Below are positions 3,292 through 8,324 of a stretch of 12,463 nucleotides of DNA, piece by piece; position 1 is the stretch's first letter; each line of letters starts with the position of its first letter. A model generated the notes under the pieces. The model was not told the DNA's origin, ran no database searches, and saw nothing but the letters and a program-made list of their open reading frames with translations. The stretch is from Thermoflexales bacterium. Its GTDB lineage: Bacteria; Chloroflexota; Anaerolineae; Fen-1058. The position numbers and the translations under genes are program-made. Where the stretch lies: positions 1-12,463 of the forward strand of contig JAUQXD010000879.1 of the NCBI GenBank assembly GCA_030834835.1, given 5' to 3'.

Positions 3292-3846
3292 ATGCACGAA
3301 CCATTGGAGCAAGGCTGGGAACAGTATTCCCGCCGGCTGCGGGTCTTCATTCGCGGCCGGGTCTGGGACGATGCGGAAGCCGACGACATTTTGCAGGAAG
3401 TCTTCATCCGCGTTCACCGTCATCTGTGCTGCCAGCCGAACTGGGACAAGCCCGACAGCTGGTTCTATCAGATCGCCCGCAACCTCATCATCGATCATTA
3501 CCGCCGCCGACGTGAACTGGTGGAACTCTCCGACAGCCTGCCCGCCGACCCCGATTTTCCAGAGGCAAACTCTGAAGCTGAGCTGGCGCTCTCGCTGAAA
3601 GAGATGATCGATGAACTGCCAGAGCCTTACCGTCAGGCCCTGCTCCTGACGGAATATCAGGGCTTGAGCCAGAAGCAGCTGGCCGAGAGCCAGGGGCTAT
3701 CTCTATCCGGCGCGAAGTCCCGTGTGCAACGCGCCCGCGAAAAACTGCGCGACAGGCTGTTGCAGTGCTGCCACTTCGAGTTCGATCGCCGGGGCGGCAT
3801 CGTGGACTACTATGAACATTGCTGCTGTTGTTCCCCCTGTATGTGA
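3292..3846 (+). CDS. sigZ: ECF-type RNA polymerase sigma factor, SigZ-like, with cysteine-rich tail
   Basis: The 184-aa protein has the two-domain ECF layout. Region 2 (about residues 8-75) contains DDAEADDILQEVFIRVHRHL and SWFYQIARNLIIDHYRRRR, the core-binding and -10 recognition segments. Region 4 (about 104-156) contains LPEPYRQALLLTEYQGLSQKQLA followed by the helix-turn-helix GLSLSGAKSRVQRAREKLR. The tail reads CCHFEFDRRGGIVDY and ends with a CCCCSPC cluster, the hallmark of SigZ-type factors; free or metal-bound cysteines there could make the factor itself a thiol or metal sensor. There are further cysteines at 46-47. No anti-sigma gene is adjacent. The permease gene starts 100 nt downstream on the same strand and is the obvious candidate target. 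The start ATG 3292 keeps a standard ECF N-terminus. Confidence 0.88.
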   Translation: MHEPLEQGWEQYSRRLRVFIRGRVWDDAEADDILQEVFIRVHRHLCCQPNWDKPDSWFYQIARNLIIDHYRRRRELVELSDSLPADPDFPEANSEAELALSLKEMIDELPEPYRQALLLTEYQGLSQKQLAESQGLSLSGAKSRVQRAREKLRDRLLQCCHFEFDRRGGIVDYYEHCCCCSPCM

Positions 3847-3946: not shown

Positions 3947-5086
3947 ATGGAAGCCTTGTTGAATTTAGTCCTCAAATCGATCGAGCAGGTCTGGTTGACC
4001 CTGCAACACAACTGGCCGTTTCTGGTGCTGAGCGTGGTGATCGCCACAGCGTTGAAGTTGTTCGTTGACACTGAGAAAATCGCGGCCTTTTTGGGGCGAC
4101 ATCGTCGAGCGGGCGTCCTGGCGGCCACAGGCGCAGCGGTTGGTACGCCGCTCTGCTCGTGTGGCACGACCGCGGTTGTCCTGGGCATGATGGCCAGCAC
4201 GATGCCGTGGGCGCCGATCGTCGCCTTCATGGTCGCGTCACCACTGACATCGCCCGAAGAACTGGTCTACAGCGCTGGCTTGTTTGGCTGGCCGTTTGCG
4301 CTGGCGTTCTTCGCGGCCTCGATTGTGTTGGGGCTGGCCGGCGGTTGGATCGCGGGCGTATTTGAGCGCCGGGGCTGGCTGGCCAATCAGACGCGCTTTG
4401 CCCAACCGGCGACGACCGCGTGTGCGTGCGCCGTTGAAAGCAACGTGCCCGCACCGACCAGTCGCGCCTACCGCCAGGCAGTGCCGCACATCCAGTTGAA
4501 TCAGATTGGGCTGGCGAGCGACTTCACCATTGCTCCGATGGCGCTGTCCGCCGATTGTGGCTGTGGCGAAATCGCGATCCCGCTTGAACGTGCCGAACCG
4601 GCCTGCGGTTGTTCCGATCGATCCGCGCGGCCCACCGGCCCGATGGTTCCGTCGAAACCCGGCGTGACCCCGACCGTGTTTGCGGCTGAACTCTTCACCA
4701 GCGGGAAACGCCTGCTGCTGATGTTCCTGGGCTTTGCTTTTGTCGGCTATTTTCTCAACGGTTTGATTCCGGCCAGTTGGGTGGCCGCACTGTTCGGCGG
4801 CGGCAACATCTATAACGTCCCGTTAGCCGCCACGCTGGGGTTGCCGTTCTACATCAACACCGAAGCGTCCCTGCCGCTGATCCGCGCGTTGCTGGACAAC
4901 GGCATGAGCCAGGGCGCGGCGCTGGCCTTCATGATCTCCGGCGCGGGCACCTCGATCGGCGCGATTGCGGGCGCACTGACCATCGCCCGCTGGCGTGTGA
5001 TTGCGCTGGTGGTCGGCGTGCTGTGGTTCGGGGCGATGATCAGTGGTTTTGCATTCGATCTGGCCCTATCGATGAAATTGTTCTGA
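3947..5086 (+). CDS. ArsP/DUF318-type permease with Cys-rich central loop
   Basis: The 379-aa inner-membrane protein has a hydrophobic N-terminal half (helices between residues about 22-140), a hydrophilic central loop (about 145-245) and a C-terminal bundle of helices (about 255-379). The family signature GTPLCSCGT (66-74) is present and is echoed in the second half by GLPFYINTEASLPL (298-311), the internal duplication seen in PF03773 permeases. Known members include ArsP, which exports trivalent organoarsenicals, and uncharacterised YraQ-like proteins. Unusually, the loop carries three CxC pairs: CAC (159-161), CGC (204-206) and CGC (220-222), suited to binding a soft metal. GGAG lies 8 nt upstream of ATG 3947. 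It follows sigZ on the same strand. Export of a thiophilic metal(loid) or its organic form is inferred, not shown. Confidence 0.85.
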   Translation: MEALLNLVLKSIEQVWLTLQHNWPFLVLSVVIATALKLFVDTEKIAAFLGRHRRAGVLAATGAAVGTPLCSCGTTAVVLGMMASTMPWAPIVAFMVASPLTSPEELVYSAGLFGWPFALAFFAASIVLGLAGGWIAGVFERRGWLANQTRFAQPATTACACAVESNVPAPTSRAYRQAVPHIQLNQIGLASDFTIAPMALSADCGCGEIAIPLERAEPACGCSDRSARPTGPMVPSKPGVTPTVFAAELFTSGKRLLLMFLGFAFVGYFLNGLIPASWVAALFGGGNIYNVPLAATLGLPFYINTEASLPLIRALLDNGMSQGAALAFMISGAGTSIGAIAGALTIARWRVIALVVGVLWFGAMISGFAFDLALSMKLF

Positions 5087-5188: not shown

Positions 5189-5590
5189 TTACAATGTGAT
5201 CATCTGATCGGGCGGATTGCCCGCCAGCGCCGTATACAGATCGGGGAAGCAGCCCACCGCCACACCCGCGACAACATCTTTCACCTGACAGTCACCCGGT
5301 TCAGCCCGCCCCTGTCCATTGGCGTCGCACCAGCGCGGCTCGCCCTGTGCCAGGCCGCGCTCCAAAGCGCACATATCGCACATCATCAACAGGATGCCTT
5401 TTTCGGCGGCGACTTTGGCCAGCCGCTCACCAATCGGATCGCCATGCCGCAGCACAAAGGTATTGTCGTCGAAGAAGAACATCCCGACGACGTCCACCCC
5501 GTGCACGCCCGCTTCCAACTGCGGCAGGATCATCTGCCCCAACTTGTAACTGGCCGAGCGCGGCATCGCAAACACGTAGGCAACTCTCAT
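5189..5590 (-). CDS. DsrE-like, cysteine-rich small protein (SaoD-like)
   Basis: The 133-aa protein begins MRVAYVFAMPRSASYKLGQ and has the alternating strand/helix pattern of the DsrE/TusD sulfur-relay fold: VAYVFAM, then GVDVVGMFFFDDNTFVL, ILLMMCDMCALERGL and DVVAGVAVGCF. Cysteines occur as CDMC, WCD, GDCQVKD and VGCFPD, so persulfide or metal handling is plausible. From memory it resembles DsrE-related proteins named SaoD, described with predicted organometal-handling cassettes; I cannot verify this. ATG 5590 is chosen over an upstream in-frame start because GAGGAG lies 8 nt before it and the conserved fold begins there. It follows the malY-like gene by 55 nt on the same strand and is probably the last gene of the metB-like operon; the permease with CxC motifs converges on it. 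Confidence 0.7.
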   Translation of the reverse strand: MRVAYVFAMPRSASYKLGQMILPQLEAGVHGVDVVGMFFFDDNTFVLRHGDPIGERLAKVAAEKGILLMMCDMCALERGLAQGEPRWCDANGQGRAEPGDCQVKDVVAGVAVGCFPDLYTALAGNPPDQMITL

Positions 5591-5645
5591 GCTAAAGTCT
5601 CCTCGGTTGATAGATTGACCACCAGGGATGAGTTTACGGTGAGGA

Positions 5646-6809
5646 TCAAATTGCGGCAAGTCGCTTGAGATAGGCCGTCTTCATCCGCTCCAGCGCTTCG
5701 ATCAAGACCGATCGTGAGCAGCCGAAATTCAAGCGCACAAAGCCCTTGCCTCCAGCGCCAAACGTCGCACCATCGTTCAAGGCCACGCGCGCTTCTTGCA
5801 AGAAGAAGTCATAGGGCTTTTCGATGTTGGTGGCCCGACAATCCAGCCATGCGAGGTAAGTGCCTTCCAGCGGCGACACCGTGATGCCCGGCAATTTGTT
5901 TTGTACAAAGTCGATCACGAAGTCACGATTCGCCTGCAAATACGCCAACACTTGCGTCAGCCACGCTTGCCCATCACGATACGCGGCCAGTGCCGCCGTC
6001 CAACCGAACACATTGATGCCGCTCACCAGACCGCGCTGCGCGTGTCGATAGCGCCGGCGCAAGTCTTCATCTTGAATGATGGCAAACGAGCAATCCAGCC
6101 CCGCAATGTTAAACGTCTTGCTGGGCGCCATCAGTGTGATCGTGTGACGGGCACTCGCCGGGTCGAGCGAGGCAATCGGGACGTGCTGATGTCCGGCATA
6201 GATCAGATCGCAGTGAATCTCATCGGAGCAAATCACGAGGTTGTGACGCAGGCAAATATCCGCTAACCGTATCAACTCGTCGCGCGTGAAGACGCGCCCC
6301 ACCGGATTGTGCGGATTACACAGGATAAACAAGCGCGTCCGCTCGGAGATGGCCGCTTCAAAAGCATCCCAATCGATGTGATAGACGCCAGTCGTGTCAC
6401 GGCACAACGGCACATCGCGGCGAATCAAATCCGCGTGGCGCGGCGCAGTCAACACCGGCGGATAGATCGGGGTTTGAACCAATACTTCGCCGCCCGGTTC
6501 GGCTATCGTATGGCAGGCCAGATTGAAGCCACGAATCACGCCCGGCAAAAACAGAATATCGTCAGCCGTGATGCGCCAACCATAGTGCTCGGCCATGCGC
6601 GCCACGATGACCTCGCGCAATTCAGCCGACTCGTGCGCATAACCAAAAACGCCCTGTGCCACGCGCTCGCGCAAGGCGCGCTGCACCGGCTCAGGCGCGG
6701 TGAAGTCCATGTCCGCCACCCACAGCGGCAGCACGCCCGCCGGATATTTATCCCATTTCTCGCTGTTCGTGCCTCTTCGATCGGGGCAGGTATCGAAGTC
6801 GTAGATCAT
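5646..6809 (-). CDS. patB: MalY/PatB-type cysteine-S-conjugate (cystathionine) beta-lyase
   Basis: This is a 387-aa fold-type I PLP enzyme. The N-terminus with DRRGTNSEKWDKYP and LPLWVADMDF is diagnostic of the MalY/PatB group. Also visible are NPHNPVGRVF (165-174), SDEIHCDL (195-202) and the PLP lysine in APSKTFNIAG (K231). These enzymes cleave C-S bonds of cystathionine or other cysteine conjugates, giving homocysteine, pyruvate and ammonia. Directly behind a cystathionine gamma-synthase gene, the likely job is the second step of transsulfuration (a metC-like role); a function in cysteine-conjugate salvage is the alternative. ATG 6809 is supported by GGAGG about 6 nt upstream and removes a 15-residue extension that would overlap the previous gene. 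The 13-nt gap to that gene shows they form one transcript. Confidence 0.88.
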   Translation of the reverse strand: MIYDFDTCPDRRGTNSEKWDKYPAGVLPLWVADMDFTAPEPVQRALRERVAQGVFGYAHESAELREVIVARMAEHYGWRITADDILFLPGVIRGFNLACHTIAEPGGEVLVQTPIYPPVLTAPRHADLIRRDVPLCRDTTGVYHIDWDAFEAAISERTRLFILCNPHNPVGRVFTRDELIRLADICLRHNLVICSDEIHCDLIYAGHQHVPIASLDPASARHTITLMAPSKTFNIAGLDCSFAIIQDEDLRRRYRHAQRGLVSGINVFGWTAALAAYRDGQAWLTQVLAYLQANRDFVIDFVQNKLPGITVSPLEGTYLAWLDCRATNIEKPYDFFLQEARVALNDGATFGAGGKGFVRLNFGCSRSVLIEALERMKTAYLKRLAAI

Positions 6810-6822
6810 CGCGGCCTCCGTG

Positions 6823-8034
6823 TTAGCCTTCGACAGAACGCAATGCTTGATCAAGATCGGCGATCACATCGTCGGCATCCTCAAGGCCCACGGCCAGCCG
6901 CACGAGATTATCGGCCATGCCCAACTCCGCGCGTTCTTCCGGCGTGCAATCGTAATAGGCCATCGCCGCCAGATGTAGGACCAGCGTCTCGGCACCGCCC
7001 AGCGACGGCGAAATGTACGCTAATTTCAGCGCATCGATGACGCGAAACGTTGCCGCCCGATCGCCGCGCACGGCAAATGACAGCAACCCACCGAAGCCCG
7101 TCATCTGGCGCGCGGCCAATTCATGCCCCGGATGCGATTTTAGGCCGGGATAATAGACGTTTTCAACAGCCGGATGCTGCGCCAAAAATTCAGCGACGCG
7201 CTGCGCGCTGCGATTTTGCTGCTGCACGCGCACGTTCAACGTCTTCAGGCCGCGCAACAACAGATACGCCGTGTTGGGATCAGAGATACCGCCGAAGATG
7301 CCGATCGCTTCACGTAAGGGCTTGATCAATCGATCGGACCCGGCGATGAAGCCCGCTAACAGATCGTTGTGGCCACCCAGATATTTCGTTGCCGAATGAA
7401 TCACCAGATCGATGCCCCACTCAATCGGGCGCAGATTGATCGGCGTGGATAACGTCGCATCGATCACCGTCAGCACGCCGCGTCGACGACCGATCTCCGC
7501 AAAACGTTCGACATCCAGCACATGCAAGAACGGATTGCTGGGCGTCTCCGAAAACAGAATGCGCGTCTCAGGTCGAATCGCTGCTTCGAGTGCGTCGTAA
7601 TCGCCCAGCGGCACGACCGTACACTCGATGTTGAAACGCTTCAAATGGTCTTCGCAAAATTGGCGCGTGCGTCGATAACTATCGTCGGTCATGACGATGT
7701 GGCGACCGCTGCGCAAAATGCTGAGAAATGTGTACGTGAGCGCGGCCATGCCCGATGCGACCAGAATCGCGCTGTCGGCTTTTTCGAGCGCAGCCAACCG
7801 TTCTTCGACGGCCTGAATGGTGGGATTGCCATAGCGGCCATACTCAAACCGATCGGCCACGTGGCCCTTGGCGTGAGCCTCTTGAAATTCGCAGACCTCG
7901 GCCATGCTATCGAAGGTGTAGGTCGAAGTCTGAAAAATCGGATCGATGAGGGCATGCTGCGGCTTGCGGCGAACTTCGCCCGCGTGCACAGCGCGTGTCG
8001 CGTTGCGTACTACGGCAGATAGTTGATCGGTCAT
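6823..8034 (-). CDS. metB: cystathionine gamma-synthase, plant-type clade
   Basis: The 403-aa PLP enzyme belongs to the Cys/Met metabolism family. Visible motifs are the phosphate-binding YGRYGNPT (66-73, from the neighbouring subunit), SGMAA (94-98), ETPSNPFL (163-170), the aspartate in VIDAT (D192) and the PLP lysine in HSATKYLGGHND (K217). Several stretches resemble plant chloroplast CGS rather than E. coli MetB: DDSYRRTRQF where E. coli-type enzymes have YGGTYR, LRGLKTLNVRVQQQN, and [23 protein letters not shown]. The reaction joins an activated homoserine with cysteine to give cystathionine, which the next gene product can cleave to homocysteine. GGAGAAG precedes ATG 8034. Expression is probably controlled by the Met-codon leader and terminator upstream. 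Gamma-lyase activity is an alternative that sequence alone cannot exclude. Confidence 0.88.
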   Translation of the reverse strand: MTDQLSAVVRNATRAVHAGEVRRKPQHALIDPIFQTSTYTFDSMAEVCEFQEAHAKGHVADRFEYGRYGNPTIQAVEERLAALEKADSAILVASGMAALTYTFLSILRSGRHIVMTDDSYRRTRQFCEDHLKRFNIECTVVPLGDYDALEAAIRPETRILFSETPSNPFLHVLDVERFAEIGRRRGVLTVIDATLSTPINLRPIEWGIDLVIHSATKYLGGHNDLLAGFIAGSDRLIKPLREAIGIFGGISDPNTAYLLLRGLKTLNVRVQQQNRSAQRVAEFLAQHPAVENVYYPGLKSHPGHELAARQMTGFGGLLSFAVRGDRAATFRVIDALKLAYISPSLGGAETLVLHLAAMAYYDCTPEERAELGMADNLVRLAVGLEDADDVIADLDQALRSVEG

Positions 8035-8066: not shown

Positions 8067-8098
8067 AAAAAAACGGGCTGCCTGAATCAGGCAGCCCG
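8067..8098 (-). terminator. intrinsic terminator (attenuator) in the metB-like leader
   Basis: On the minus strand CGGGCTGCCTG (8098-8088) and CAGGCAGCCCG (8084-8074) form a perfect 11-bp stem with a 3-nt loop, followed by seven T's (8073-8067). It lies 32 nt before the metB-like start codon and downstream of its promoter, so read-through is required for expression. Confidence 0.92.
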
Positions 8099-8122
8099 AG
8101 TTCAAACTACGTCCCTTTGGCT

Positions 8123-8145
8123 GGATAGAACTGAAGACTCTATCC
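8123..8145 (-). promoter_or_regulatory. hairpin overlapping the leader-peptide stop codon
   Basis: GGATAGA (8145-8139) and TCTATCC (8129-8123) form a perfect 7-bp stem with a 9-nt loop. The leader stop codon TAG (8142-8140) lies inside the 5' arm, so a terminating ribosome would melt it. It sits between the antiterminator segment and the terminator. Confidence 0.55.
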
Positions 8146-8241
8146 GCCGCTGCCTAATAAGCACCCGCGCATCAACATCGCCATCATGTTGGACATGATC
8201 GCCATGGTTGAGTGGTTCAGGGCAGCGTTGGAAGTCTTCAT
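8140..8241 (-). CDS. methionine-rich leader peptide of the metB-like operon
   Basis: A 33-codon ORF lies between a strong promoter and the terminator. Met occurs at codons 1, 13, 16, 19, 20, 22 and 24; residues 13-24 read MAIMSNMMAMLM, followed by RGCLLGSGG and TAG. There is no Shine-Dalgarno sequence: ATG 8241 sits only about 0-3 nt from the predicted transcription start, so translation would be leaderless. The nucleotides ATTAGGCAGC (8158-8149), inside codons 28-31, can pair with GCTGCCTGAT (8095-8086), covering the 5' arm of the terminator. With scarce Met-tRNA a ribosome stalled at the Met run leaves this segment free and the antiterminator can form; with ample Met the ribosome reaches the stop, masks it and the terminator folds. 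The ORF is too short for ordinary gene calling; the regulatory role is inferred from its layout. Confidence 0.75.
   Translation of the reverse strand: MKTSNAALNHSTMAIMSNMMAMLMRGCLLGSGG
8149..8158 (-). promoter_or_regulatory. antiterminator segment of the methionine attenuator
   Basis: ATTAGGCAGC is complementary to GCTGCCTGAT at 8095-8086 over 10 bp, including one T-G wobble; the central 7 bp (AGGCAGC/GCTGCCT) are perfect Watson-Crick pairs. The same bases copy part of the terminator's 3' arm, so the two structures exclude each other. Confidence 0.65.
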
Positions 8242-8250
8242 TAAGGCCGA

Positions 8251-8279
8251 ATTTTACGGGACAGAGTGCTCACTGTCAA
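8251..8279 (-). promoter_or_regulatory. sigma-70 promoter of the metB-like operon
   Basis: On the minus strand TTGACA (8279-8274) is followed after 17 nt by TAAAAT (8256-8251). The predicted start is near 8244-8241, at the ATG of the Met-rich leader ORF. The promoter lies just beyond the end of the carbonic anhydrase gene, giving the metB-like operon its own start. Confidence 0.8.
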
Positions 8280-8324
8280 TCCACATTTCTTACGGTGTTC
8301 ACAGCCCAATCGAGGTGCACATTC

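Follow-up and report, generated by a model that had tools for sequence, protein, structure and literature searches.

A predicted methionine-codon attenuator before a plant-type cystathionine gamma-synthase gene of a Thermoflexales bacterium, and similar leaders in its relatives

Bacterial methionine genes are textbook cases of control by SAM riboswitches, T-boxes and MetJ/MetR. Which of these, if any, governs a predicted cystathionine gamma-synthase (CGS) gene in a Thermoflexales genome (G000) is the question raised by the DNA studied here. Searched against Rfam at gathering score, the window (the whole stretch of 12,463 nucleotides that was analysed) matches only a tRNA, with no SAM-I riboswitch (RF00162), T-box or amino-acid leader family. 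A preliminary description had read the region before the gene as an attenuator built on Met codons. That interpretation is supported by Met leaders and covariation in relatives, by the lack of an Rfam riboswitch or T-box, and by similar leaders before other Met-pathway genes, the sensing itself being predicted. We consider it very probable, judging from sequence comparison, that the region is a ribosome-mediated transcription attenuator which would sense charged Met-tRNA and control the predicted CGS gene.

The elements first described (TTGACA-17-TAAAAT, a Met-rich 33-codon ORF, a 10-bp pairing and an 11-bp hairpin with T7) agree base for base with the minus strand, and the metB-like gene behind them belongs to Cys_Met_Meta_PP (PF01053; 8034-6823, minus strand). 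To these we add segment 1, the geometry of the ribosome edge, the distribution over several operons, and the SAM-I riboswitch found before the same gene in relatives. The features, with their basis, are:

8274..8279, minus strand: -35 hexamer TTGACA (sequence)
8251..8256, minus strand: -10 hexamer TAAAAT, after a 17-nt spacer from the -35 (sequence, promoter scoring)
8140..8241, minus strand: leader peptide ORF MKTSNAALNHSTMAIMSNMMAMLMRGCLLGSGG, 33 codons plus TAG (sequence, alignment of orthologous peptides)
8221..8227, minus strand: segment 1, CGCTGCC, early in the ORF, predicted partner of segment 2 when no ribosome is present (complementarity, folding)
8170..8205, minus strand: Met run, codons 13, 16, 19, 20, 22 and 24, predicted stall sites (sequence)
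8149..8158, minus strand: segment 2, ATTAGGCAGC, in the ORF tail, 5' arm of the antiterminator (helix test, covariation)
8086..8095, minus strand: segment 3, GCTGCCTGAT, in both antiterminator and terminator (helix test, covariation)
8067..8098, minus strand: intrinsic terminator with 11-bp stem, 3-nt loop and T7 (sequence, covariation in relatives)
6823..8034, minus strand: CGS-like gene, plant-type, metB role predicted (PF01053, structure matches)
5646..6854, minus strand: PatB-family C-S lyase, cystathionine beta-lyase role predicted (TIGR04350 over cut-off)

The layout has the parts of a classical attenuator. The leader is a short ORF rich in codons for the end product: seven Met codons (the start, codon 1, and those of the run), six of them internal among 33 codons, with the run kept in orthologues. 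Between ORF and gene lies the terminator, CGGGCTGCCTG-ATT-CAGGCAGCCCG (8098-8074, minus strand) followed by T7 (8073-8067), one arm of which is shared with the antiterminator, where segment 2 (8158-8149) pairs with segment 3 (8095-8086) over 10 bp including one G-U. Segment 1 (8227-8221) is the reverse complement of GGCAGCG near the end of the ORF and completes the 1:2, 2:3 and 3:4 set, although this 7-bp match, taken alone, is not above shuffles (p 0.42).

The gene is named a plant-type CGS because its best match among solved structures, tobacco CGS 1i41 (388 bits), outscores the best methionine gamma-lyase (319 bits); its activity is predicted. No NCBIfam model exceeds its cut-off among the matches listed (25 of 49). 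The PatB-family ORF, as listed, overlaps the end of the CGS gene, and the two are likely to be on the same transcript. Upstream of the CGS gene lie carbonic anhydrase, metY-type and cysK-type genes, a cluster reading in the same direction, and a promoter-like pair sits between this cluster and the leader ORF. Adjoining the sulfur cluster is a gene for a SaoD/DsrE-family protein (5189-5659, minus strand; NF040913 over cut-off), convergent with one for a SaoE/SO_0444-like efflux permease that scores below cut-off (3947-5086, plus strand). Also in the window, an ORF at 3292-3846 (plus strand), presumably encoding an ECF sigma factor, has a Cys-rich C-terminus, CCCCSPCM.

The end of the -10 hexamer and the leader ATG are 9 nt apart in the window, and the identical 9 nt occur in L003, the leader before the CGS orthologue of genome G004; from this spacing, the window's leader mRNA is predicted to be leaderless or nearly so. 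All 14 CGS leaders compared have upstream of them a best -35/-10 pair scoring 9.5-12.5 points. The ATG falls 7-11 nt past the best -10 in seven of them (the window, L003, L174, L175, L178, L180 and L181), which are predicted to start at, or a few bases from, the transcript end, and 18-31 nt past it in the remaining seven. Immediately upstream of the window's -35, CGTAAGAAATG (8284-8294, minus strand) is identical in G004 and could be an activator or UP-like site.

We infer that the leader is translated, that ribosomes stall on it, and in which direction the control runs. Transcription would begin at the leader ATG or a little before it, as predicted from the promoter spacing, and a ribosome would translate the leader. 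Were elongator Met-tRNA scarce, the ribosome would stall in the Met run, segment 2 would be free to pair with segment 3, and, with no terminator formed, the genes would be on. When Met-tRNA is plentiful, the ribosome would pass over segment 2, leaving segments 3 and 4 to form the terminator and turn the genes off. With no ribosome at all, folding predicts a 1:2 pairing and a formed terminator in the window, though not in all relatives.

Such a device depends on where the control codons lie. When a hungry codon occupies the A site, the front of a bacterial ribosome is expected about 13 nt beyond that codon's first base. Segment 2 of the window starts 14 nt after the first base of the last Met codon, so that a ribosome stalled on that codon would leave the antiterminator arm free. 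This distance could be compared across 41 leaders: 14 before CGS genes, seven new matches of a covariance model (R1, below) and 20 before metG, six of 33 non-CGS leaders (metG) having been dropped because they had no ORF with a terminator. In 33 of the 41, the longest pairing of the ORF tail with the terminator arm starts 14-21 nt beyond the last Met codon, against 9.0 expected from shuffles, a comparison in which the range was set after the distances had been seen and the metG leaders had been picked for their Met runs. Two leaders outside the 41 counted give 20 nt (L241; 6-bp helix, p 0.94) and 22 nt (L222; 8-bp helix, p 0.11), and the metG antiterminators are individually weak (many p > 0.1).

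When the nascent RNA is folded as far as the terminator loop, the window has 9.7 expected pairs between segments 2 and 3 if a ribosome is stalled on its last Met codon, and 0.7 if there is no ribosome; the zero pairs at the stop codon are given by the construction of the model. At least five such pairs are expected at the stall in 34 of the 41 leaders, and fewer than five in seven. Without translation, the 1:2 hairpin forms in the window's model, but 18 of the 41 leaders, G004's L003 included, still keep at least five expected 2:3 pairs, so that a state in which lack of translation leads to termination is not general. In seven of the 14 CGS leaders, 21-22 nt separate segment 2 from the stop codon that follows it; a ribosome waiting there would already be off segment 2, and masking would therefore come about by passage or by 1:2 pairing.

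Evidence that the antiterminator exceeds chance is modest from the window alone and decisive together with its relatives. A gapless longest-helix test was used in place of RNAduplex over long regions, whose p-values were noisy. By this test the window's 10-bp helix has p 0.0175 (mononucleotide shuffle), and its 7-bp Watson-Crick core p 0.068 (codon shuffle). Individual relatives can be unimpressive (L003, 6 bp, p 0.65; L092, 5 bp, p 0.72), while the 14 CGS leaders combined give a Fisher p of 5.6e-8. Covariation was assessed in 13 CGS leaders, L180 being left out for its different register. With strings registered by eye to the pairing, and hence biased towards pairing, 80.4% of antiterminator cells are standard pairs against 21-42% when the strings are slid; five pairs have changed on both sides, which 7 of 500 shuffles reach, and further pair types are unremarkable (51 of 500). 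The terminator is 98.3% paired in alignment A7, with both-side changes and covariation that none of 500 shuffles reaches and further pair types that are again unremarkable (499 of 500); on shorter by-eye strings its covariation falls short of significance, the core being almost invariant. In L176, segments 2, 3 and 4 read GGACAGC, GCTGTCC and GGACAGC, all three altered and both pairings kept.

Alignment of leaders from orthologous genes, the check proposed in the preliminary description, thus bears out both conserved Met runs and compensatory changes, in antiterminator and terminator alike. The first set of relatives held 60 genomes, 59 with some match, and 30 loci were read, the window included. 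Among them the G004 orthologue, 88% identical, has the leader MNPSHAAMTNSHLAIMLNMMAMSMRVWNSGSGA, which agrees with the window's in its promoter spacing and in the core of its terminator. A scan of named genomes found, among its best 80 loci, a Met-rich leader with a terminator in two, Bellilinea caldifistulae GOMI-1 and Anaerolineales UBA4823. Within Bellilinea's family (Anaerolineaceae), 46 of 61 sampled genomes gave some match and 11 had a CGS orthologue (57-100% identity), G201 being Bellilinea itself by identical protein. Each of the 11 orthologues is preceded by a leader ORF in which, as listed, 3 to 10 Met codons are internal, the weakest being L180, which R1 misses.

The window's peptide shares an MMAMxMR motif with L003, L062, L172 and L173. 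Two exact peptide patterns were tried and set aside: AIMxNMMAM matches 21 of 396 genomes of the class, with the window and L003 as recognised leaders, and MMAMxxR matches 53 of the 396, where three of 30 matches with loci are leaders and another, in G130, is a metG leader. One further CGS locus (L094) has a GTG-started ORF with four Met codons and no terminator, and carries SAM-I.

The same kind of leader occurs before other operons. R1, built from the 13 CGS leaders and run on 147 genomes of Bellilinea's family, gave 17 matches above 40 bits: ten were the model's own leaders and the other seven were all new Met leaders, two before metA-metY, two before aspartokinase-asd (L233 and L237) and three before CGS-aspartokinase, the genes having been identified by search at five of the seven loci and read from the sequence at the rest. 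At 31.7 bits, L222 (G414) is a third aspartokinase-first leader, MHSLPILREKFPPSCLILGMGTMMSMTTMTAYSATTAAAAFEDHRR. Over 386 genomes of the class, nine match at E <= 1e-6, namely G000, G004, G201, four with metG leaders (L240-L243; the gene was identified by search at L240, L241 and L242) and two by chance. The chance matches, L217 and L244, were rejected as terminator-only or repeats, as were L219 and L221 among the hits under about 40 bits. L222, L242 and L243 also scored below about 40 bits and proved to be real Met leaders, and further leaders may lie among the remaining weak hits. A phylum-wide scan at E <= 1e-7 found only G000 and G201 among 196 genomes, which is weak evidence on range since R1 is tuned to CGS leaders.

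A separate survey of metG found matches in 165 of 199 genomes and took the upstream DNA of the 90 ranked highest. Of these regions, 32 had a terminator-like hairpin, and 18 of the 32 had a Met-dense ORF that ran up to the terminator, against none on the reverse strand and 0-1 in each of 20 shuffles. Six of the 18 came from family f27, all nine genomes of which had a Met-containing ORF. In the same survey Arg-dense ORFs were commoner than Met-dense ones (23), and Ser- and Ala-dense ORFs numbered 13 each, all three being codon-rich amino acids; single-codon Trp gave none. No Met-dense ORF with a terminator precedes metG in G004, and the metG search of G000 returned one match only, at 26%. G130 has two metG-like genes, of which the copy on contig 75 (L241) has the Met leader. 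Upstream of metG in family f11 (L268, L270 and L273), very GC-rich nested hairpins stand near Met codons in a different layout.

Codon content varies with the operon. Up to the last Met, Thr makes up 19 of 85 residues in the three aspartokinase-first leaders and 28 of 518 in 24 others (p 2.8e-6); in the metA leaders it makes up 5 of 41. The aspartokinase-first leaders L233, L237 and L222, which mix Thr and Met codons, may thus be two-amino-acid attenuators that also read Thr-tRNA. The best reading of the relatives, as their sequences stand, is that the same device is predicted before metA-metY, aspartokinase and metG. If so, a regulon of CGS, metA-metY, aspartokinase and metG is predicted in a group that includes the cultured Bellilinea.

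In most relatives scanned, the same CGS gene stands behind a different sensor. Among 60 CGS loci compared with Rfam, the window included, 49 have SAM-I (two contigs are counted twice, as L006/L063 and L014/L083), four have a Met leader (L002, L003, L062 and L092) and seven have neither (L011, L020, L069, L081, L084, L093 and L105, of which L011 and L081 are one contig, and L069 and L093 have less than 240 nt upstream, so that their label may reflect truncation). None of 15 Met-leader loci, the window among them, has a SAM-I riboswitch. A quick tree was built from 74 rows (49 SAM, 17 Met, 6 neither, 2 outgroup), and in it the 17 Met-leader genes fall on one branch (SH-aLRT 98), joined by a single SAM-I row, L061, and the labels require two changes against 15.4 when shuffled. 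A single gene tree thus allows study of how one RNA sensor was exchanged for another, since most scanned relatives have SAM-I where one branch has the predicted Met-codon attenuator. For L061 (2744-2864), with its CGS gene under SAM-I, a swap back is possible. A contig filed as Pleurocapsa minor (L066 / L008) carries a Chloroflexota-type CGS and is probably misfiled.

The CGS genes of the window and G004 nest inside the Anaerolineaceae group on this tree, and G002, congeneric with G004, has a different CGS under SAM-I (L009); gene and leader would appear to have been transferred together. Contamination is 7% in G000 and 9% in G004, and the window's contig could accordingly belong to another organism. 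SAM-I occurs in 137 of 147 genomes of Bellilinea's family, and so coexists with Met leaders. G000 itself has one SAM-I riboswitch, elsewhere than in the window, before a gene which we take to be metH.

A wider proposal is that a regulon of Met-tRNA attenuators displaced SAM sensing for part of the methionine pathway, with a two-sided response arising from the double use of methionine; we hold this as a tentative suggestion, and would sooner bet against it. The leader would need fMet-tRNA for initiation as well as Met-tRNA for elongation. Mild shortage of Met would then cause stalling and turn the genes on, and severe shortage would stop leader initiation and turn them off again where segment 1 pairs with segment 2, as predicted in the window. 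Because the leader also needs the initiator tRNA, the predicted two-sided response would not be possible for an attenuator of any other amino acid, and the system suits tests of what follows when one amino acid is both sensed and used to initiate translation.

Among explanations that dispense with codon sensing, the best placed, although improbable, is arrest by the nascent peptide: a Met-rich peptide with an M-x-M-R end would stall in the exit tunnel on methionine or SAM, much like the MTO1 region of plant CGS1, and the stall would set the hairpins. It draws on the recurrence of M-x-M followed by Arg or Pro in both CGS and metG leaders and on the fact that the controlled enzyme is a plant-type CGS. 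The peptides, however, vary outside their Met codons (mean column identity 39%), and the residues after the Met run follow the bases of segment 2. Thr is enriched in the aspartokinase-first leaders, as codon sensing predicts, and an arrest induced by SAM would turn the gene on at high SAM.

Still less probable is a ligand-binding riboswitch that works independently of translation, with the ORF incidental. The frequency of SAM-I before the same gene (49 of the 60 loci) speaks for it, as does the fold of the window's leader, more stable than all but one of 200 shuffles (z -4.3). Yet at gathering scores Rfam found no riboswitch, T-box or leader family in 20 Anaerolineaceae loci, the 11 CGS orthologues included, and nothing in 20 metG loci, in line with the result for the window, and the conserved part is a reading frame of Met codons with an antiterminator and a terminator. 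That the hairpin constitutively ends the upstream metY/carbonic anhydrase transcript, with the ORF there by chance, fits the co-directional upstream cluster but is the most remote of these readings, given the promoter-like pair between cluster and ORF and the fact that Met runs, the pairing and its spacing recur in front of four kinds of operon.

Attenuation by Met codons therefore remains our reading, on the strength of the layout, its conservation and covariation, the distance from Met codon to antiterminator, and the link to Met-pathway and metG genes. The preliminary description had thought it possibly undescribed. The idea of a Met leader is already in print: for Streptomyces lividans TK24, the available part of PMC8079986 predicts such a peptide upstream of metNIQ, named metL, with 29 residues, two internal Met and several Thr, leaderless, and lacking, according to its authors, a typical Rho-independent terminator. 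It resembles the window's leader in being a predicted Met peptide with a leaderless start, and has Thr codons too; unlike the leaders described here, it is a single actinobacterial leader before a transporter, for which that part of the source shows neither an antiterminator nor conservation. What stands of the earlier remark is narrower, in that the accessible portions of the open full-text literature (subscription papers lying outside its scope) held no conserved Met attenuator with terminator and antiterminator before biosynthetic genes or metG. The mechanism is known and its Met specificity nearly unreported; priority is not proven.

The attenuators of trp, his, leu, thr, ilv and phe likewise place codons for the end product in a short ORF, with alternative segments and an intrinsic terminator. 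Here the codons are Met, four kinds of operon are involved, and half of the CGS leaders are predicted to be leaderless. The attenuator motifs named in the available part of PMC3766115 are His, Leu, Thr, Trp, Ile/Val and Phe; that of PMC9413887 treats His leaders, that of PMC13236596 ilvB1 and Cys codons, and that of PMC1262725 describes the methionine operons of Actinobacteria as lacking a conserved upstream RNA structure. Synthetase genes may also follow leaders with their cognate codons, as described in the accessible sections on cysS in Rhodobacterales (a uORF; PMC8632094), hisS in Firmicutes (PMC2965389) and leuS and trpS in Streptomyces (PMC1262725); the counterpart here, in the window's class, is metG with Met codons. 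If the present reading is true, leader-peptide attenuation that works through a terminator and an antiterminator would gain Met, and possibly Thr plus Met, as a full specificity.

Two other systems act on the same gene or enzyme. SAM-I, which most scanned relatives have upstream of the same CGS gene and which also occurs on other genes in the same genomes, senses SAM through an aptamer and needs no ORF, and is absent from the window. Plant CGS1 is subject, through MTO1, to nascent-peptide control within its coding region, by SAM-induced arrest and mRNA decay; it shares with the predicted attenuator a translation-dependent feedback on plant-type CGS, and differs from it in working without a separate leader and terminator.
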